Source: a virus. Taken from it: a DNA stretch of 64,000 nucleotides. The stretch is from IMG/VR virus record IMGVR_UViG_3300017752_002245, positions 1 to 64,000 of that record. The stretch is one strand, 5' to 3'. A model generated the notes under the pieces. That model was not told the DNA's origin. It did not search any database and worked only from the letters and a program-made list of their open reading frames with translations. Positions 18,060-50,616 of the stretch are shown here, one piece after another. Numbering within the stretch: the first letter of the stretch is position 1; the number at the start of each line of letters is the position of its first letter. The position numbers and the translations under genes are program-made.

Positions 18060-18315
18060 GTGGCAAGTAATACAAGGACGTAAGTCCGAGAAAGATAAAA
18101 TACTATTGTACCAAGGAAAAGCCGTTTCTTTTCGTGACGTTGCAATGATGTGTATATTCTTCATGGAGAATGAAGACATACTATATCCACCATCCCGTGG
18201 TCTAAAAGGTGCGGAGATGTTTAAAGACTATATAAAAGAAGTGTTAGAAAACAGAAAAGTTCCTACGGATAGTAAATATGCGATTAGGAAAAACCACGGA
18301 GTTGTAAAAGTATGA
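18052..18315 (+). CDS. Hypothetical protein, 87 aa
   Basis: Overlaps the primase-like gene by 8 bases and the epimerase by 4. Contains a helical FRDVAMMCIFFMEN segment and a basic tail. No family recognised. Confidence 0.6.
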   Translation: MDKWQVIQGRKSEKDKILLYQGKAVSFRDVAMMCIFFMENEDILYPPSRGLKGAEMFKDYIKEVLENRKVPTDSKYAIRKNHGVVKV

Positions 18316-19250
18316 GAATATTGATTACTGGTGCAGCGGGTTTCATTGGTTCACATCTTGCAGATAGTTTATTAGAAGATGGATTTGATGTTGTTGGATT
18401 AGACAACTATAACAACTACTATGACCCCGCACTTAAAAAAGACAGAGTTGCATACTTTGGTCATCAAGTATATAAGGCAGATTTAAAAGAGTTTGACGAA
18501 GTAGACCGTGCATTTAATAAGTTAATGCCAGATGTAGTCATTCACCTTGCCGCTCGTGCGGGTGTACGTGACTCTGTTGGTAATGAACAGTTATATCACC
18601 AAGACAATATCATTGGAACACAGAACCTTATTCAAGTATGCAAAATGTATAAGGTTAAGAAAGTTCTCTATGCATCTACTAGTTCAGTCTATGGTGGAAC
18701 ACCTATCCCTAAAACAGGATGGGTTGAAGATGAGGTTACTGGTCACCAGTTGAATCCATATGCATATACAAAGTATTGTAATGAATGTCAGTTTAAAATC
18801 TCTGGACTAAACAATATAGGACTAAGGTTCTTTACTGTATACGGCCCTTGGGGTAGACCTGACATGGCATTATATCAGTTTGCAGATTCGATTGTTGCGG
18901 GTGATTCTATTGAAGCATATAACTATGGTAATATGAAAAGAGACTTCACCTATGTTGGTGACATTATCGAAGGTATTAAATTAACACTATTTGCTGACCT
19001 ACCGTCTGGAGAAATCTTCAACATAGGTAGAGGTAAACAAGTAGAACTTATGCATTTTATTGATTGTATAAGTAAAGAACTGGGTAGAGATGTTGATGTA
19101 GTTCTCGCACCTCGACACCCCGCAGATACTCTAGAGACTTGGAGTAATACTGCGAAACTAAGAGAACTAGGATATAAACCCAGAGTAAACATTGAAGTAG
19201 GTGTTGAGGCATTTATTAGATGGTACAAAGATTATTACGGAGTAAATTAA
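18312..19250 (+). CDS. NAD-dependent sugar epimerase (UDP-glucuronate 4-epimerase-like)
   Basis: A 312-residue short-chain dehydrogenase. Nucleotide motif GAAGFIG (7-13) and active-site Y150-x3-K154. LDNYNNYYDPALK and RFFTVYGPWGRPDMA are typical of UDP-glucuronate epimerases. With the next gene it could turn UDP-glucose into UDP-galacturonate, for surface or DNA sugar modification. Phage virulence or host surface change is inference. Confidence 0.85.
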   Translation: MRILITGAAGFIGSHLADSLLEDGFDVVGLDNYNNYYDPALKKDRVAYFGHQVYKADLKEFDEVDRAFNKLMPDVVIHLAARAGVRDSVGNEQLYHQDNIIGTQNLIQVCKMYKVKKVLYASTSSVYGGTPIPKTGWVEDEVTGHQLNPYAYTKYCNECQFKISGLNNIGLRFFTVYGPWGRPDMALYQFADSIVAGDSIEAYNYGNMKRDFTYVGDIIEGIKLTLFADLPSGEIFNIGRGKQVELMHFIDCISKELGRDVDVVLAPRHPADTLETWSNTAKLRELGYKPRVNIEVGVEAFIRWYKDYYGVN

Positions 19251-20197
19251 TGAAAGATGATGGTTTAAGAAATCTAAATCCTGACGGTTCACCTCAACAG
19301 GTGCAGACAAGACTAAAAATTGGTATTGTTGGTCATGGTTTTGTAGGGGGTGCAGTAGACTATGCGTTTACCCATCCTGAAATTGATATGTATTATGTTG
19401 ACCCAAAACACAATACAACGATTGATGACTTGGTTGATTGGCAACCACATGTGTCGTTTATTTGCGCTCCAACTCCAATGTCGGATGATGGGTTTGTTGA
19501 TGCGTCCATTGTAGAAGACGCAGTATTAAAACTATTGGAACATACAGAAGGTGGTGTTGTTGTCAAATCAACAATCACTCCAGATATTGTTGACCGTTTA
19601 TATTCTTCAATCTTTGAAGATGACATCAAACGTTTGACTATCAACCCTGAGTTCCTGACAGAATCAAATGCAAAAGAACAGTTTGTAAATGCAGAGTATC
19701 ATGTTATTGGTGGTCACCCTGACGCATGTCAAGGTCTTGCACAGTTGTATGATGTGTACAGTCTATGTACTGCAACAGAATATTTGTTCTGTTCTGCACC
19801 AGAAGCTGCATTCATTAAGTATGGAGTGAACTCATTCCTTGCAACTAAAGTAACATTCTTTAATCAATTATATGATTCTGCAATTGGATTTGGTTGTAAT
19901 TTCCCTACTATTGCAAATGCAATCGGTAAGGACAAAAGGATTGGTGTTGGTCACACCCGTGTGCCTGGCTATGATGGTAAACGTGGATTCGGTGGTGCGT
20001 GTTTCCCCAAGGATACAAAAGCATTTACTTTATTCGACCCTAGCTTGACTTTAATTGATAAGTGTGTTAGTATAAACAATGAATTTCGTAATGGTTACGA
20101 ATTAGATAAACGTGAGGAAGAAAATAATGTCAAGTATGATGGACAAGCTGAAGAAGAACAGCAAGATAAAAACGACAGCGATACTGTCGGAGAGTAA
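19250..20197 (+). CDS. UDP-glucose 6-dehydrogenase-like enzyme
   Basis: A 315-residue nucleotide-sugar dehydrogenase with GIVGHGFVGG (25-34), the NPEFLTESNA substrate motif and catalytic C251 in GGACFPKDT. It oxidises UDP-sugar to the uronate. Start ATG 19250 overlaps the epimerase stop. Shorter than typical enzymes (about 390), with a reduced C-terminal domain. Its last 71 bases overlap uvsX, so its polar tail is encoded over the uvsX start. Confidence 0.8.
   Translation: MKDDGLRNLNPDGSPQQVQTRLKIGIVGHGFVGGAVDYAFTHPEIDMYYVDPKHNTTIDDLVDWQPHVSFICAPTPMSDDGFVDASIVEDAVLKLLEHTEGGVVVKSTITPDIVDRLYSSIFEDDIKRLTINPEFLTESNAKEQFVNAEYHVIGGHPDACQGLAQLYDVYSLCTATEYLFCSAPEAAFIKYGVNSFLATKVTFFNQLYDSAIGFGCNFPTIANAIGKDKRIGVGHTRVPGYDGKRGFGGACFPKDTKAFTLFDPSLTLIDKCVSINNEFRNGYELDKREEENNVKYDGQAEEEQQDKNDSDTVGE
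20045..20073 (+). promoter_or_regulatory. Intragenic promoter for uvsX
   Basis: TTGACT (20045-20050), 17 bp spacer, TAGTAT (20068-20073), inside the dehydrogenase gene 54 bases before the uvsX start. It would allow uvsX to be expressed apart from the sugar genes. Confidence 0.6.
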
Positions 20198-26254: not shown

Positions 26255-26440
26255 ATGAAAAAGACGAAACGTATAAAGTCTCGTCACGCACGGGTACTGT
26301 TCGCAAAGGACAGTCCTTTTACCCACAAGGTTGTGCCTGACAAGACCAAGTATAACCGCAAAAAGAATCCCCGCAAAGTCGGGGATTTTTCTTATTGGTC
26401 TTTATTAAATTCTCTAAAAGGTCTAACCTTCCCATCGTAG
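26255..26440 (+). CDS. Small basic protein, 61 aa
   Basis: AAAGGAGTG ribosome site and ATG 26255. The FAKDSPFTHKVVPDKTKYN segment recurs in small basic proteins of other T4-like phages. Oddly, the bidirectional terminator at 26366-26390 lies inside its 3' end and encodes the NPRKVGDF part, so much of the mRNA may end before the stop codon. Confidence 0.55.
   Translation: MKKTKRIKSRHARVLFAKDSPFTHKVVPDKTKYNRKKNPRKVGDFSYWSLLNSLKGLTFPS
26366..26390. terminator. Bidirectional terminator between convergent genes
   Basis: AATCCCCG (26366-26373) pairs perfectly with CGGGGATT (26380-26387), loop of six. Five T follow on the + strand, and five T follow on the minus strand (26360-26364). It ends the minus-strand gene 26392-26703. 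Confidence 0.82.
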
Positions 26441-26730: not shown

Positions 26731-26738
26731 TATAAATA
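26731..26738 (+). promoter_or_regulatory. T4-type late promoter of the curli-like operon
   Basis: Exact TATAAATA ending six bases before the ATG at 26744. With the usual late start site, transcription begins at the A of the ATG, so the first gene would be leaderless. It heads the operon to 32506 or 32999. Confidence 0.72.
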
Positions 26739-26743
26739 AAGGC

Positions 26744-27025
26744 ATGGATGAGATGGTAATACTAGTCTCCGAATTGGGTTTTCCAGTTGCTGCTGCATGT
26801 TTGGGTGGGTTCTTCATGTTCCTAACATTAAAATACATAATGAATGGTGTTATTGATAAGGTAAATTTTATCAGTAATATGGTCTCTGGTCTCGATAATC
26901 GGGTAAAAAATATGAATCACGATATGATTCGTATGGATACAACCATGTGTGTAGTATTAGGAATCAAACCAGACTTGAATAGAATTAGTAGAGCGGATGG
27001 ACAGAAAGATGCACGGAGGGATTAA
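26744..27025 (+). CDS. Small membrane protein 1 of the curli-like operon
   Basis: A 93-residue protein with one N-terminal membrane helix and a cytoplasmic or periplasmic coiled coil. ELGFPVAAACLG at the start, and GLDNRVKNMNHDMIRMD later, are paralleled in the next gene (DFGFPIVAALGM, GLIDRVRMLDNDIIRLQ), so the two are paralogues. They resemble YvrJ-type or holin-like small proteins in layout only. Confidence 0.62.
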   Translation: MDEMVILVSELGFPVAAACLGGFFMFLTLKYIMNGVIDKVNFISNMVSGLDNRVKNMNHDMIRMDTTMCVVLGIKPDLNRISRADGQKDARRD

Positions 27026-27036
27026 TTGTTGAAACA

Positions 27037-27285
27037 ATGGATGTAGTTACAGCAATAAAAGATTTCGGCTTTCCGATAGTTGCCGCATTGGGGATGCTTT
27101 ACGTCATCTATTTTGTGTGGAAGACTATAACACAACAAGTAGAATCCAAGTTAGATGATGCACATATAGTCATTATTGGTCTTATTGACCGAGTGAGAAT
27201 GTTAGATAATGATATCATTCGATTGCAACAGAAATTAGATACTGCAATAGAAATGGGGAGAAAAGAAAAAGAAGATGAAGAATAA
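27037..27285 (+). CDS. Small membrane protein 2 of the curli-like operon
   Basis: An 82-residue paralogue of the preceding protein, with one membrane helix (about 8-29) and a charged coiled coil. Overlaps the CsgF-like gene by 11 bases. The pair could form a helper complex for the secretion genes or a holin (both inference). Confidence 0.62.
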   Translation: MDVVTAIKDFGFPIVAALGMLYVIYFVWKTITQQVESKLDDAHIVIIGLIDRVRMLDNDIIRLQQKLDTAIEMGRKEKEDEE

Positions 27286-27757
27286 TTTTAGTTTAGTAGA
27301 AAAAATAGAATCAGCATGTTTGTTAATTGCTTTTGGTCTTATGTTGTTTGTTGTAGTTGAAGTACAAGCTGCACCCAAAGAACACAAATTTAAATCACCA
27401 TCATTTAGTGGAATAAATCAATCGTCACATTATTTGACAATTGAGAACCAAGAGACTTCAAGAAAAGAAGCTATAAAACAGGAGATTAAAGACCTCAAAG
27501 AACAGATGGAGAGGGACGCAGAAAATACAACCCTCGCAAAATTTATTAGGAATGTCGAAAGCAGAATCTACTCGACATTATCAAGACAAATAGTAGATGG
27601 TATGTTCGGAGAGAATCCTAGTGATACAGGTTCTTTTAATATCGAAGGTACTGGGATATCATACGTCAGAGACGGTGATTCAGTAATATTAACAATAACA
27701 GATGAGAACGGTAATGTCACGACTATTACTATTCCCCTTGGTGATTTTGGTATCTAG
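27275..27757 (+). CDS. csgF: CsgF-like curli assembly protein
   Basis: A 160-residue protein with a hydrophobic N-terminal signal (about 14-32, ending VQAAP). FKSPSFSGINQSS, an internal helix SRIYSTLSRQIVDGMFG, and the C-terminal DSVILTITDENGNVTTITIPL follow the CsgF pattern. In bacteria CsgF docks in the CsgG channel and couples fibre nucleation to the cell surface. The next gene, CsgG, overlaps it by 56 bases. Confidence 0.82.
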   Translation: MKNNFSLVEKIESACLLIAFGLMLFVVVEVQAAPKEHKFKSPSFSGINQSSHYLTIENQETSRKEAIKQEIKDLKEQMERDAENTTLAKFIRNVESRIYSTLSRQIVDGMFGENPSDTGSFNIEGTGISYVRDGDSVILTITDENGNVTTITIPLGDFGI

Positions 27758-28511
27758 TTGTTCAACTTTAGGGGATAAAATAGAATTCCCCACCGAAGAA
27801 CAACCAAAGGTTCAGGAAACATTACTTCAATCTGAATTAAGGAATGTTTCGAAACCAACAAGGAAACCAACTGTAGCTGTATATCAGTTTACAGACCAAA
27901 CGGGACAAAAAAGACAGAACAGTAGTGGTGGAACAAGTTTTAGTTCTGCTGTTACACAAGCACCTTCAGTGTATCTAATTAGAGCATTGAAACGTGCTAG
28001 TAAGGGAAATTTCTTCAGGGTGGTTGACCGTCAAATTATTGACCATGTGACGAGAGAACGTCAATTAATACGACAAACTCGTCAATCATATGAAGGAAAT
28101 GACTCTCAGAAGTTGCCAGCGCTTACTTTTGCTGGCATGATTATTGCTGGGGGTATAGTAGGATACGATTCTTCTATTGACACAGGAGGTAGTGGTGCCA
28201 GAACATTAGGCATTGGTGGTTCTCGTGAATTTAGTGTAGACACCGTTACGGTGAATATTAGATTGGTTTCGGTTGCTACGGGTGAAGTTTTACTTGATGT
28301 TATAACAAGTAAGACAATACTATCTACAGCGTACAGTGGAGATGTATTTAAATTTATAGAACAGGGTACTCAACTTATAGAAATAGAAAGTGGAGTTACT
28401 CAAAACGAAAGTGTATCAATTGCTACTCAACGGGCAATTGAGCAAGGAGTCCTAGAACTTATTTTGAGGGGGTCTCAAAAAGGTTTCTGGACATTAACTG
28501 GAGAAAAATAA
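27702..28511 (+). CDS. csgG: CsgG-like outer-membrane secretion lipoprotein
   Basis: A 269-residue protein with a lipoprotein signal (LVSS-C20) and the CsgG core: TVAVYQFTDQTGQ, SVYLIRALKRA, FFRVVDRQ, ERQLIRQTRQ, LPALTFAGMIIAGGIVGYDS and RNxxxVDTVTVNIRLV-like strands. CsgG forms a ring-shaped pore in the outer membrane that exports curli subunits. Start ATG 27702, or 27714 with a shorter signal. A phage copy implies a Gram-negative host and export of a partner protein, probably the next gene product. Confidence 0.88.
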   Translation: MRTVMSRLLLFPLVILVSSCSTLGDKIEFPTEEQPKVQETLLQSELRNVSKPTRKPTVAVYQFTDQTGQKRQNSSGGTSFSSAVTQAPSVYLIRALKRASKGNFFRVVDRQIIDHVTRERQLIRQTRQSYEGNDSQKLPALTFAGMIIAGGIVGYDSSIDTGGSGARTLGIGGSREFSVDTVTVNIRLVSVATGEVLLDVITSKTILSTAYSGDVFKFIEQGTQLIEIESGVTQNESVSIATQRAIEQGVLELILRGSQKGFWTLTGEK

Positions 28512-29239
28512 TGAACGTTAAGGCAAAATCATTTTATGCTGTGATGTTCGTAATTGGTGCTGCATATGCTTATGCAGACAATGAAGTCTATATAGACCAA
28601 GTAGGAAATGGTGGAGATATAGAAATTATACAAGACGGTAGTGGAAATAAACTAGGTGGTGGTCTATCAGATACCAGTAAATTCCTCCTCGATGGGGCGG
28701 ACATGGATTTCAAGGTCAATTTGACTGGTGGAAGTAATAACCTAATAGGTTCTATTATTGGTACTAGTACAGTTGATATTGATGTCAGTGGTTCTTCGAA
28801 CGATTTACTTTTTGATATTGATAAAGACAACTCATTTGGTGCTGAAAATGGTGATTACGTAATTGATATAACTGGTGGTAATAATGACCTAGACTTTGAC
28901 TTTGGTTCTTTAGATACTGCTAATGACCTAGACTTTGATTTCGTATTAGACGGTGATTTTAACACCGCTGATGTGAATATTGATGCAACAGGGGTCGTAT
29001 TCAATATGGACGTAGTTTCAGACAACTCAAACTTGTTATATAATGCAAGTGGTTATGATGGACATAACTTTGTTCTGACTGGAACAGGTAACTATTGGGA
29101 CATTGAAGTTCACCAAGAGTCTACTTTACAGGCAGATTCATTGGAGATAGAATATGAAGGTTCTGGTACAAGCACGACAGACGCAACTATTTGTATTAGT
29201 CAGTCTGATGATGGGACTAACACTAACTGCGGAGGCTAA
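28511..29239 (+). CDS. Secreted acidic curlin-like protein
   Basis: A 242-residue protein with a cleavable signal (about 1-22, ending AYA). The start of the mature part, VYIDQVGNGGDIEIIQDGSG, resembles a curlin repeat. Further Asn/Asp/Gly-rich repeats follow (NLTGGSNN, DVSGSSND, DITGGNND, VSDNSN). A beta-solenoid or amyloid fold is likely. It is more acidic than CsgA. As it directly follows CsgG, it is the likely export substrate (inference). Confidence 0.7.
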   Translation: MNVKAKSFYAVMFVIGAAYAYADNEVYIDQVGNGGDIEIIQDGSGNKLGGGLSDTSKFLLDGADMDFKVNLTGGSNNLIGSIIGTSTVDIDVSGSSNDLLFDIDKDNSFGAENGDYVIDITGGNNDLDFDFGSLDTANDLDFDFVLDGDFNTADVNIDATGVVFNMDVVSDNSNLLYNASGYDGHNFVLTGTGNYWDIEVHQESTLQADSLEIEYEGSGTSTTDATICISQSDDGTNTNCGG

Positions 29240-30275
29240 TGATACTGACGTAGGTGCAGTAGACAAGGCAGTTGGTTGGAGACAAATACTTAGAGACACA
29301 ACTAAGATTGAACCCGCTATGGGTCAAGATGTAATCTCGAAGGATGACCTTCGCACAGGTGAAGGTCGCCTTCAGGTTCGTTTTTTAGATGATTCGAAAT
29401 TAAGAATGACAGAACATACACGTATCGTAATTGATAACGTGGTATTTGACGATGACCCAAGTAAGTCTGACTTGGCGATGACGTTTGCCCAAGGAACTGC
29501 TAGATTCATATCTGGTGGTTTGGGTAAGGTTGACAAAGAAAATATCAGACTCAAAACCCCTACCGCATCAATCGGTATCAGGGGTACAGATTTTACGGTA
29601 ACCGTTGACGAATTCGGGAAAACGCTCGTGGTACTTTTGCCAGACGTAAACGGTATTTCATCTGGTGAGATTATTGTTTCAACAATGACAGGTGAGGTTG
29701 TACTCAACAAACCGTTCGAGTCCACAACAACAACAGTTGCAGAAACCGCTCCATCTGCACCCGCAATCCTAGACTTAACTCTGGATATGTTAAACAATAT
29801 CATGATTATCAATCCCCCCAAAGAAGTACAGACACAAGAAGAGTTCATGTCAAGTGTCACTGCATCTAAAAACATCAATCCATTAGACATAGACTTCCTT
29901 GACGAAGATTTATTGCAAGATGAGTTTGAAGAAGATTTGTTGGAATTTACAGAACTTGATATCAATTATCTAGACGTTGACCTACTCGAAGACATGTTAG
30001 ATACTTTTGATAGTCTAGGAGAAGATATCCTACAAGAAAAACAAAGTACAGGTGAGTTAAATCTACAGGGAACAGAAGAAGGATTTGATACAGTCACACA
30101 GGTCGCAACAGTCATAGAAGGAGACAAAGTAACCTTTAACAGAACAGTAAACGATACCGCAGTAGTAACTGTAGACAAAAATGCACTGACCAATTTATTA
30201 ATAGAACAAGACGGAAAAGAACTTGACCCGATTCGTGTAAACGGTGTCGAAACAGAAATCATAATAAAACAATGA
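29154..30275 (+). CDS. Secreted FecR-domain protein
   Basis: A 373-residue protein with a signal sequence (about 10-28). The FecR-type domain runs from about 50 to 165: LRTGEGRLQVRFLDDSKLRM, then a TASIGIRGTDFTV segment. The C-terminal half is acidic with ILDLTLDMLNN and repeated DLLxD units. ATG 29154 has GGAGATAG upstream, so the 86-base overlap with the curlin-like gene seems real. FecR-domain proteins next to CHASE2 cyclases are known from bacteria. Confidence 0.78.
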   Translation: MKVLVQARQTQLFVLVSLMMGLTLTAEANDTDVGAVDKAVGWRQILRDTTKIEPAMGQDVISKDDLRTGEGRLQVRFLDDSKLRMTEHTRIVIDNVVFDDDPSKSDLAMTFAQGTARFISGGLGKVDKENIRLKTPTASIGIRGTDFTVTVDEFGKTLVVLLPDVNGISSGEIIVSTMTGEVVLNKPFESTTTTVAETAPSAPAILDLTLDMLNNIMIINPPKEVQTQEEFMSSVTASKNINPLDIDFLDEDLLQDEFEEDLLEFTELDINYLDVDLLEDMLDTFDSLGEDILQEKQSTGELNLQGTEEGFDTVTQVATVIEGDKVTFNRTVNDTAVVTVDKNALTNLLIEQDGKELDPIRVNGVETEIIIKQ

Positions 30276-30685
30276 AGTACTGGATACCATTACTTGCATT
30301 TATACTGTTTACCGTTCCTTCGTGGGGACTAGACCTAACACTACCCGAACCCGAAGAACCCTATGATTACGAAGAGATAGAAATACCAGAAGTTTATATA
30401 TTTAATTTTGGTGACTATAACGAACCCCCGACTAGAACACAACTGACTATATTCTGGACTCTCAATGCATTAGATGTGTGGACAACACATAGAGCATTAA
30501 AAGATTGTCCTAATTGTAGAGAGATGAATCCATTGCTACCAGACAGACCAAAACTTGAAGACCTCTTATTACAGAAAGCAATCGTAGGTGGCATAATACA
30601 TTGGCAATCAAGTAGTGACTATATGACGGGTATAAATATAGGTTTAACATACGCAGTCGTAAACAACTATAAAATAGTGTACTAG
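30272..30685 (+). CDS. Exported DUF5658-like membrane protein
   Basis: A 137-residue protein with a signal sequence (1-19, ending SWG), an acidic linker with EPEEPYDYEEIEIPE, then NALDVWTTHRALK and REMNPLLP, which match the DUF5658 helix pattern. Four-base overlap with the FecR gene and directly followed by the cyclase. Role unknown. Confidence 0.65.
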   Translation: MKYWIPLLAFILFTVPSWGLDLTLPEPEEPYDYEEIEIPEVYIFNFGDYNEPPTRTQLTIFWTLNALDVWTTHRALKDCPNCREMNPLLPDRPKLEDLLLQKAIVGGIIHWQSSSDYMTGINIGLTYAVVNNYKIVY

Positions 30686-32506
30686 ATGAAAACATGGCAT
30701 GTATTTGTCACCCTTATTGTCATGGTGACATTAAGATTATTAGACCCCTTCTTATTAGAGAGTGCAAGACTCTCATTCTTTGATTCTATGCAGAGGACAC
30801 AGGATGTGTCTATATCAGAACAAATTGTACTGGTAGATATAGATGAGAAGACTCTAGATAAGTTCGGACAGTATCCCATTCCCCGTAAAGTAATGGCAGA
30901 TGAGATTGATAAGATTGATGGTAGTATTATTGCATTCAATATCTTGTTTTCAGAAGAAGACAGAATGGGTGGAGATGAATACTTTGCAGACATCTTATCA
31001 TGGAAACAAGCAATTGTTGCAATCGCACCATCCAACAGAACCAACACAGACTATCGTCCACCTCGTATAGGTACTGCGACATTTGGTGATAGGGACGCAG
31101 AAGACTTTAGACCAGAACTGCCAGGCATGTTGTTTGCACAACCAATCATCCACGACAATGCATTTGGTTATGGTACAATATCATCTGCACAGGATGTTGA
31201 TGGTATTGTCAGAAGACAACCCCTATTAGAGAACTTCGATAATAGACTGTATCCCGCATTCGCATTAGACGTACTTAGAGTTGCGGCAGGGGATTCATCT
31301 TATCAGATATCCACGGATGACTATGGTATTCAGTTTGTTCGTATTCCCAAGTTCAAACCAATCACTACAGATGTAAACGGTAACGTTACAATCGCATACT
31401 GGAATGAGTTTAAAAGATATTCATTTACAGAACTAGACCAAATACCCGAAGGTTCAATTATTATTGTAGGTGCAACTTTTGAAGGTTCTAATGTGGTATC
31501 TACACCAATGGGTGCAATGTACCCCCATGATATTCAAGCAAATCTAATCAAGACAATGATTGATGGTGTAGTTTTAAAACGACAGTCTGAATTCATGTTA
31601 TATGAAATTATTGTAAGTGTCATACTAAGTGTCATACTTATTGCATTCATAACACTTGCACCAATATCTGTATCTGGTATGACGTTTGGTGTCATACTCA
31701 TGGGAATATACTATTTTGTAACTGATACATTCTCAACATATTTCTATATGGTTGACCCAGTATTTCCTATATTAACCATGGTGGTCATATTTGCACATGG
31801 TTCGTTTGTTCAGTTCTATACACAGTTCAAAGCTAAACAGATGATTAAGGGACAGTTTGGTACATACCTATCACCCGACATGGTGGACATGTTGGCAAAA
31901 GACCCCAGTCTTATGAAGTTGGGTGGTGAGAGAAAAGAGATGACGTTCCTATTCATGGACATATGTGGATTCACCCCCATAAGCGAGCATTATAAAAACA
32001 AGGATGATGCAGAGGGTTTGGTCACACTTATTAATAACTACTTAAATGAGATGACTAATATTATCCTAAATAACGGTGGAACAATCGACAAGTATATGGG
32101 CGATTGTATTATGGCATTCTGGAACGCACCCTTACCGTGCGACAATCACGCAGAGATGGCAGTTAAATCTGCAATAGAGATAGAAGAAAAGACTAATGAA
32201 CTTAGACAAAAATATCAAGAACAAGGTCTCCCGCCTATTAATGTTGGAACTGGTATTAACACTGGTACTTGTATTGTTGGTAATATGGGTAGTGAATCGA
32301 GATTTGATTATTCAGTCATTGGAGACTCCGTCAACCTTGCCGCAAGACTTGAAGCAACCGCAGCAAGAGGAGACTACCTTGAATACAAGACCATCTACTC
32401 TAGTTTTACAATGGAAAAACTCACCACTATTAATTCGAGACCAATAGGTCAGATTAAAGTGAAGGGTAAGGAGGAGATGATTGATATCTACACAATGGAC
32501 AGATAA
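30686..32506 (+). CDS. CHASE2-domain class III adenylate cyclase
   Basis: A 606-residue membrane protein. An N-terminal membrane helix (about 5-24), an extracytoplasmic CHASE2 sensor (about 30-300), three membrane helices (about 305-385) and a cyclase domain (about 408-606). Metal aspartates D425 (FMDICGF) and D473 (DKYMGD), base-specifying K469/D547 and transition-state N550 and R554 are all present, so it should be active and make cAMP. The sensor would face the periplasm, as do the FecR and curli proteins of the operon. Confidence 0.88.
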   Translation: MKTWHVFVTLIVMVTLRLLDPFLLESARLSFFDSMQRTQDVSISEQIVLVDIDEKTLDKFGQYPIPRKVMADEIDKIDGSIIAFNILFSEEDRMGGDEYFADILSWKQAIVAIAPSNRTNTDYRPPRIGTATFGDRDAEDFRPELPGMLFAQPIIHDNAFGYGTISSAQDVDGIVRRQPLLENFDNRLYPAFALDVLRVAAGDSSYQISTDDYGIQFVRIPKFKPITTDVNGNVTIAYWNEFKRYSFTELDQIPEGSIIIVGATFEGSNVVSTPMGAMYPHDIQANLIKTMIDGVVLKRQSEFMLYEIIVSVILSVILIAFITLAPISVSGMTFGVILMGIYYFVTDTFSTYFYMVDPVFPILTMVVIFAHGSFVQFYTQFKAKQMIKGQFGTYLSPDMVDMLAKDPSLMKLGGERKEMTFLFMDICGFTPISEHYKNKDDAEGLVTLINNYLNEMTNIILNNGGTIDKYMGDCIMAFWNAPLPCDNHAEMAVKSAIEIEEKTNELRQKYQEQGLPPINVGTGINTGTCIVGNMGSESRFDYSVIGDSVNLAARLEATAARGDYLEYKTIYSSFTMEKLTTINSRPIGQIKVKGKEEMIDIYTMDR

Positions 32507-49875: not shown

Positions 49876-50616
49876 ATGAATCTTCTGGCGAAGGCAAACG
49901 AATATATTGTAGGAAATAGTGGATACGGAATCATAGGTCTGTTCTACATAAGTCTTGTAGTTGTCGGATATGATTTAGCAATCAATCAGAACTGGTCATT
50001 ATTATGGTGGTATCCAATAGGAACTGTCATAATGTTAATACTCAGTTCTGCATTCTATCACCGTGCAATCGCACACCCAACATGGAAATGTCCAAACTGG
50101 TTGAGATATCCTTTAACGTTTATCTCTACTGGTCTTGGATTAGGTGCAGTAATCCCTTGGGTCGCAACCCATAGACAACACCATTATCATTCAGAAGAAG
50201 AAGGTGACCCACATGGGCCTCAGTATTCTCTTCTACACAATCTGAATATATATCTTACTAAACCAAACTTTATGTATGTCAGAGACATACTGAGAGACCC
50301 TCTATATGTTGCACAACTAAAATACTTTTGGTTATGGGCAGCAATTACTATTGGTCTCTTTAGTGCAATGTTTGGATTTGTTGAATGGGCATTCGTATAT
50401 GTTACCATGATTGTACACCAAGTATTCTTGTTGTATGTTGGTCATATCAGATGGATTCCACAGAATGGATGGAAAGGACATTTCCTTGGACTCATTTATT
50501 CACCTGAAATCTATCATCTAAAGCATCATGATAAACCCATGAACGCTAGACTTGGTAAAGTTGATTTACCCTATTTGTTATTAATTAAGTGGTTCAAACA
50601 CAATGGTGTTAAATAG
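49876..50616 (+). CDS. Membrane fatty acid desaturase
   Basis: A 246-residue membrane protein with the three histidine boxes of acyl desaturases: H62-x4-H67, H99-x2-H102-H103 and H214-x2-H217-H218. Four membrane helices are visible. It would introduce double bonds into host acyl chains with two irons as cofactor. Directly followed by an ANL-type enzyme, which suggests lipid remodelling. Confidence 0.85.
   Translation: MNLLAKANEYIVGNSGYGIIGLFYISLVVVGYDLAINQNWSLLWWYPIGTVIMLILSSAFYHRAIAHPTWKCPNWLRYPLTFISTGLGLGAVIPWVATHRQHHYHSEEEGDPHGPQYSLLHNLNIYLTKPNFMYVRDILRDPLYVAQLKYFWLWAAITIGLFSAMFGFVEWAFVYVTMIVHQVFLLYVGHIRWIPQNGWKGHFLGLIYSPEIYHLKHHDKPMNARLGKVDLPYLLLIKWFKHNGVK

Follow-up and report, generated by a model that had tools for sequence, protein, structure and literature searches.

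A probable divergent curlin encoded directly after csgG in a marine T4-like phage

E. coli CsgA is exported through CsgG-CsgF. For phages, csgF and csgG were reported by Zaragoza-Solas et al. (2020; PMC7029224), with the fibre genes suspected among hypothetical proteins. Wittmers et al. (2022; PMC9599517) described a pelagiphage type VIII secretion system (T8SS) module consisting of HK, CsgF, CsgG, CsgA/B, FecR, a second CsgA/B and adenylate cyclase, and recognised CsgA/B, FecR and cyclase genes in both podophages and myophages. Phage curli cassettes are reported to be widespread in the ocean, and viral curli genes to be transcribed at sea (PMC9599517). The operon of phage HTVC008M (KC465899) carries a counterpart of the protein studied here which is annotated as "curlin-associated protein, CsgB" (AGE60350.1). 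For the cassette of Methylophilales phage Melnitz, Buchholz et al. (2022; PMC9004378) proposed a role as a lysis pore, reported no cell clumping with this phage, and suggested that phage CsgF and CsgG are no longer paired. Given the CsgB label in HTVC008M and the CsgA/B assignments in PMC9599517, the idea of phage-encoded curlins is not new; in the literature, we found no experiment showing secretion or polymerisation of a phage curlin. The HTVC008M operon and the three publications (PMC7029224, PMC9599517, PMC9004378) indicate that the gene described below is a divergent member of a published kind. What is added here is the predominance of the one-curlin form in its lineage, a layout with conserved ends and a degenerate middle, a late promoter motif, the conservation of the CsgF anchor, and proposed corrections to the labels "histidine kinase" and "iron regulator".

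The stretch of DNA analysed (the window) comprises 64,000 nt (positions 1 to 64,000) of IMG/VR virus record IMGVR_UViG_3300017752_002245, which has 103,166 bases. Its source is a marine T4-like phage; the record encodes T4-type replication proteins, and its DNA polymerase is 63% identical to that of phage C48C1 and about 48% identical to that of Synechococcus T4-like phages. The hosts of related phages only suggest SAR11 or OM43 as the host. The cassette has the order two small membrane proteins, csgF, csgG, curlin, FecR-domain protein, 137-aa protein and CHASE2-cyclase:

26731–26738, + strand: late promoter motif of the T4 type, TATAAATA, ending 5 nt upstream of the ATG that opens the cassette
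26744–27025, + strand: small membrane protein of 93 aa, first cassette gene, with one hydrophobic N-terminal segment followed by a coiled-coil-like part
27037–27285, + strand: small membrane protein of 82 aa, of the same type as its 93-aa neighbour
27275–27757, + strand: csgF (Pfam CsgF, 1.9e-16)
27702–28511, + strand: csgG, with a lipoprotein signal (VSSC) (Pfam, 6e-47; PDB CsgG, 3.1e-43)
28511–29239, + strand: the gene studied, coding for a curlin-like, predicted secreted beta-solenoid protein (ORF, profile, model, kernel)
29154–30275, + strand: secreted FecR-domain protein (Pfam FecR, 1.3e-11, as the only match)
30272–30685, + strand: 137-aa protein of no known family, in the slot of the second curlin of two-curlin phages
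30686–32506, + strand: CHASE2 - class III adenylate/guanylate cyclase (Pfam CHASE2, 1.3e-37; Guanylate_cyc, 8e-20)

Gene order and gene set equal those of the T8SS module of Wittmers et al. except for the second curlin. The window cassette thus differs from that module in having one curlin, and further in its small upstream genes without a kinase domain and its lone secreted FecR domain. AGE60350.1 from HTVC008M resembles the phage protein in its place after csgF-csgG and before FecR, and in its similar length, signal peptide and curlin-type repeat; the two proteins show 26.5% sequence identity over residues 11–203 (E = 2e-4). HTVC008M codes for a second, longer curlin-repeat protein between FecR and cyclase, where the window phage has the unrelated 137-aa protein. 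The curlin-associated repeat protein of Melnitz (QZI95051.1) agrees with the phage protein in place and kernel, but Melnitz has two curlins and the window phage has one.

Two viral scans yielded 77 and 78 loci, on contigs which are partly shared. Wherever at least 500 nt were available 3' of csgG, the next gene is curlin-like (146/146 viral loci). FecR and cyclase are both present in 77 distinct cassettes, of which 68 contain a single curlin and nine carry a second curlin in the FecR-cyclase slot. No curlin motif was seen in the filler genes examined from one-curlin cassettes with a gap in this slot, and neither the 103-kb record nor a 149-kb near relative gave a Curlin_rpt (PF07012) match besides the first curlin.

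The FecR-cyclase slot appears to be an insertion hot spot (window and six related loci), holding a second curlin, the 137-aa protein or other genes which, by eye, are NifU-like, cytidylyltransferase-like, methyltransferase-like or C5 DNA methylase-like. Most members of the second phage curlin family have a Cys pair of their own (N-C-x-T-V-G-G-C). The two small membrane proteins look related to each other, are of holin-like size, and open the cassette in most loci. Pfam detected no kinase domain in the upstream proteins of 82–93 aa, and the published label "histidine kinase" looks wrong, assuming that these small genes occupy the position labelled HK in PMC9599517. An iron-regulator role of the FecR-domain protein is doubtful. 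This protein has a signal peptide and a lone FecR domain; no anti-sigma part was detected in it, and no sigma-70 region 2 domain was found in the record. In NCBIfam it comes closest to the models of the surface proteins Lsa33 and LipL45, with scores well below cut-off. A search of the record for a cAMP-binding domain found none. Elsewhere in the window, inspection by eye revealed a fatty-acid desaturase-like membrane protein with histidine boxes in the ORF list (49876–50616) and a sugar-nucleotide epimerase and UDP-glucose dehydrogenase-like pair (18312–20197), the latter hinting that this phage also alters surface polysaccharides.

Cellular sources of the cassette were searched for as well. 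A genome scan with the phage CsgG profile returned 16 contigs inside metagenome bins; because nearly all of these carry a phage-type cassette, they were treated as phage DNA. The bins with phage-type curli cassettes are metagenome-assembled genomes of Maricaulis, Pelagibacter, Flavobacteriales and others, and the contigs are likely to be phage contigs contaminating these bins. Five alphaproteobacterial csg loci have csgG, some with curlin genes, and their surroundings yielded no FecR, cyclase or small membrane gene. In cells, FecR adjoins CHASE2 in 1 of 30 loci, a count from a motif search with short flanks and a narrow motif. A plasmid search found no relative of the curlin-like protein.

The gene at 28511–29239 is an unbroken ORF of 242 codons (242 aa), while the antisense strand in the same register has many stops. 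Its start codon shares one base with the csgG stop (TAATG), and GGAG, 7 nt 5' of the start, provides a good ribosome site. An earlier note, made from the DNA alone, had placed the gene directly after csgG, and the adjoining upstream gene is indeed a true csgG according to Pfam. With dN/dS of about 0.08–0.17 against relatives at 60–80% identity, where synonymous sites are near saturation in some pairs, the gene is under purifying selection.

The gene product is almost certainly a curlin homologue, as judged from profile searches and conserved positions. When the family profile was compared to 177,635 PDB sequences, both solved curlins ranked first: R15.5 from Pontibacter korlensis (8c50; E = 5.9e-7) and E. 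coli CsgA (8enq; E = 0.037). A profile of the second phage curlin family independently ranks 8c50 and 8enq first, and a profile-profile comparison matches the two phage families at 99.2%. Pfam Curlin_rpt matches 30/46 family members at E ≤ 0.1 (best 6.8e-8); PHROGs and NCBIfam searched with the curlin-like protein returned no match. The known curlins differ from the phage protein in several respects. R15.5 has 15.5 near-perfect repeats, whereas a single repeat of the phage protein is perfect and the others are degenerate. Compared to E. coli CsgA, the Gln columns are mostly lost and the protein is far more acidic.

Within the protein, four parts can be distinguished:

28511–28576, + strand: predicted signal peptide, residues 1–22, with cleavage at AYA|DNEV (rule-based only)
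28580–28648, + strand: full canonical curlin repeat, residues 24–46 (kernel pattern, alignment)
28703–29110, + strand: degenerate arches (strand - G-x-x-N - strand), residues 65–200, in which the core Gln columns are lost
29183–29236, + strand: C-terminal half repeat A-T-I-C-I-S-Q231 with the Cys pair C228/C240, residues 225–242

A signal peptide is thus predicted by rule, and it is conserved: the rule (hydrophobic core and A-x-A-type site) holds for 45 of 51 representatives, and the other six still begin with a hydrophobic segment. Behind it, the predicted mature N terminus DNEVYIDQVG leads into the kernel N24-E-V-Y-I-D-Q30-V-G32...I-E-I-I-Q41-D-G43-S-G-N46. The kernel was tested with the published pattern N-$-Psi-$-Psi-$-Q-X-G-X-X-(N)-$-Psi-$-Psi-$-Q-X-G-X-X (PMC10192328), leaving the second Asn position (N12) free, which is G35 in the phage protein; when the mature chain was shuffled 200,000 times, the pattern never occurred. 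In this form, the full kernel is present in 46/51 representatives, and later repeats are incomplete. The curlin-like unit VYIDQVGN...IIQDGSG pointed out in the earlier note corresponds to residues 26–45, and so is part of the full kernel.

Among the 46 aligned representatives, N24, Q30, G32, Q41, G43 and N46 are invariant, as are G73/N76, G94/N97, G122/N125, N151, G193 and Q202, so that invariance coincides almost exactly with the curlin positions. Conserved Asn residues at 24, 46, 76, 97, 125 and 151 are spaced by 22, 30, 21, 28 and 26 residues, in agreement with a curlin repeat length of about 23 residues that is longer where arcs carry insertions. The repeats following the kernel had been described as diverged, which suits a single-sequence Curlin_rpt score of 14.3 bits (cut-off 20.7), and repeat detection bears them out: there are eight G-x-x-N sites (3.0 expected; P = 0.004) and five arch units (0.29 expected; P = 0.0001). 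Near the C terminus, Q231 and D233 are each present in 45/46 aligned sequences. The Cys pair C228/C240 (29192–29233) occurs in 38/51 first-curlin representatives and is a possible end-locking disulfide. Residues 23–50 are the most conserved, with a mean entropy of 1.13 bits vs. 1.5–1.9 in other mature segments, and Gln columns are kept only near both ends of the solenoid (30 and 41; 202 and 231). Conserved ends and a drifting middle are what would be expected if the ends must match for stacking. With few Gln columns and a Curlin_rpt score below cut-off, the protein falls outside the canonical CsgA/CsgB class (CS or NCS); by its predicted signal peptide, kernel, repeat spacing, solenoid model and curlin homology it fits the degenerate (D) curlin class of Sleutel et al. 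(2023).

A beta-solenoid fold of the phage protein is well supported by modelling. AlphaFold2, run with 46 sequences (pLDDT 81.4, pTM 0.77), predicts an all-beta structure, signal peptide aside, with strands on both sides of each GxxN; together with the conserved repeat motifs, this supplies the regular beta repeat whose lack, like that of a signal peptide, would have spoken against the proposal in the earlier note. The second phage curlin, modelled as a yardstick for the fold, gave a poor result (pLDDT 58.5). Among viral predictions, Foldseek ranks phage "Curlin associated" proteins best (probability 1.00, TM up to 0.8). Against the PDB, Foldseek returned nothing at E ≤ 0.001 and only weak beta-helix matches, and the solved curlins were not among the best 50 matches listed. 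VIA-align placed SufD-type beta-helices, which do not polymerise, at the top (Z = 16.7).

The protein had also been called acidic, and its mature chain contains 43 Asp and Glu in 220 residues (19.5%), with a net charge of −39; within the family, the net charge spans −17 to −42. R15.5, which has about 20% Asp and Glu and was chosen for its acidity, still forms fibrils (PMC10192328). The acidity of the phage protein thus does not exclude fibres.

The partners expected for export are encoded immediately upstream. Phage CsgG, with its lipobox VSSC, aligns with E. coli CsgG over nearly the full length (3.1e-43). Its assignment as holdfast protein HfaB was considered and rejected, the match being weak (2.4e-7) and far below that to CsgG. 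The CsgF anchor F-x-x-P-x-F-x-G is kept in 144/145 loci and aligns to the E. coli segment which sits in CsgG. Enterobacterial CsgF binds CsgG via F26, P29, F31 and G33, and the Phe residues are required (PMC12311626). The conserved anchor argues against a separation of phage CsgF and CsgG as suggested in PMC9004378. In the constriction loop of phage CsgG (SSGGTSF vs. YPASNF in E. coli), the Phe is kept while Tyr and Asn are replaced, which might widen the pore; in HTVC008M and Melnitz, Leu takes the place of this Phe. The CsgE gate (PF10627), an accessory and not universal periplasmic component of curli/type VIII secretion systems, gave no match in seven phage records, of which the 103-kb record may be a fragment. 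No N22-like targeting segment was seen in the phage protein; such segments are the exception among curlins (PMC10192328). The profile match to PDB curlins, the structure match and the gene order agree with the earlier proposal of a probable CsgG substrate, and export of the protein by the phage's own CsgG is very probable.

The cassette is probably expressed late, as deduced from the motif upstream of it. TATAAATA occurs 11 times in the window, always on the + strand, vs. five expected on both strands combined. In 39 of 85 distinct upstream regions it lies within 70 nt 5' of the first cassette gene, vs. a background of 1.2% per 70 nt; as relatives are not independent, the enrichment is suggestive. 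The spacing to the first cassette ATG leaves almost no leader. A terminator-like hairpin is located upstream of the cassette (26363–26390), and a scan for ordinary sigma-70 promoters gave little excess (34 vs. 27 expected).

We consider it the best explanation overall, with some confidence, that the protein is a degenerate-class curlin which is exported by the phage's own curli (type VIII) secretion line and forms a surface fibre. It would be made from a late-expressed operon, enter the periplasm by means of its signal peptide, and be threaded unfolded through the phage CsgG pore with its phage CsgF cap. At the host cell surface it would fold into a beta-solenoid with two strands per turn. The canonical N-terminal repeat and the C-terminal half repeat, both of which keep Gln columns, could then dock subunits end to end, resulting in a thin, very acidic, curli-like fibre. 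That the phage curlin polymerises seems slightly more probable than that it does not. With only one complete repeat and without a Gln ladder in the middle of the protein, the polymer could be weak or absent. Other points against the fibre reading are the non-polymerising beta-helices at the top of the structural matches, the lack of a Foldseek match in the PDB at E ≤ 0.001, the single Curlin_rpt match in the 103-kb record and in its 149-kb relative, and the observation that Melnitz caused no clumping (PMC9004378). The likeliest use would be a remodelled surface of the infected cell: sticky cells or debris might help progeny to reach new hosts, or the cell might be shielded from other phages. 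Any particular ecological use is tentative at best.

A solenoid which does not polymerise, exported by CsgG as a monomer or short capped oligomer and serving as a coat or as a ligand, perhaps read by the FecR protein and the CHASE2-cyclase, is unlikely, though it would account for the degenerate central repeats, the single curlin in 68/77 distinct cassettes, the strongly negative charge throughout the family (−17 to −42) and the FecR and cyclase genes being kept in the same order. Most beta-solenoid proteins do not polymerise (PMC10192328). However, canonical curlin motifs are kept at just those ends that would need caps, and the comparably acidic R15.5 does form fibrils (PMC10192328). We give little credence to the more specific version that, in the one-curlin lineage, the protein is no longer a bulk amyloid and is instead a surface-exported solenoid monitored by the secreted FecR-domain protein and the CHASE2 cyclase.

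We likewise give little credence to a CsgB-like nucleator or adaptor in need of another polymer, supplied by the host or as a second phage curlin. The HTVC008M counterpart is annotated as CsgB, two-curlin phages have a second, longer curlin, and degenerate terminal repeats are likewise known from E. coli CsgB (PMC10192328); but PF07012 detects no second curlin in the window's record or in the 149-kb relative, and the SAR11 and OM43 hosts of related phages lack curli genes (PMC7029224, PMC9004378). It is very unlikely that the pore is a lysis-timing device, as proposed by Buchholz et al. (2022; PMC9004378), with the curlin-like protein as a plug or relic. The late-promoter motif and the missing CsgE match (PF10627, seven phage records) would suit this proposal, but CsgF keeps its CsgG anchor, contrary to the proposed separation, and a gene that follows csgG in 146/146 loci and is under purifying selection is no relic. 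It is hardly credible that the protein is part of the virion, as a tail-fibre or tailspike beta-helix with no relation to curli. Beta-helix folds including tailspikes do appear among the structure matches, but the signal peptide, the curlin kernel, the curlin profile matches and the fixed place after csgG stand against it.

The secreted, fibre-forming curlin thus remains our preferred reading. If fibres form, the host acquires from a lytic phage a surface amyloid that it does not have itself, which would matter for aggregation, encounter rates and superinfection at sea. If the protein were instead a solenoid monitored by the FecR-domain protein and the cyclase, this would be a virus-encoded feedback or signalling circuit across the host envelope, changing host cAMP late in infection. 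A substrate encoded by one gene, conserved end repeats and an intact CsgG-CsgF pair make this a sharply testable system.
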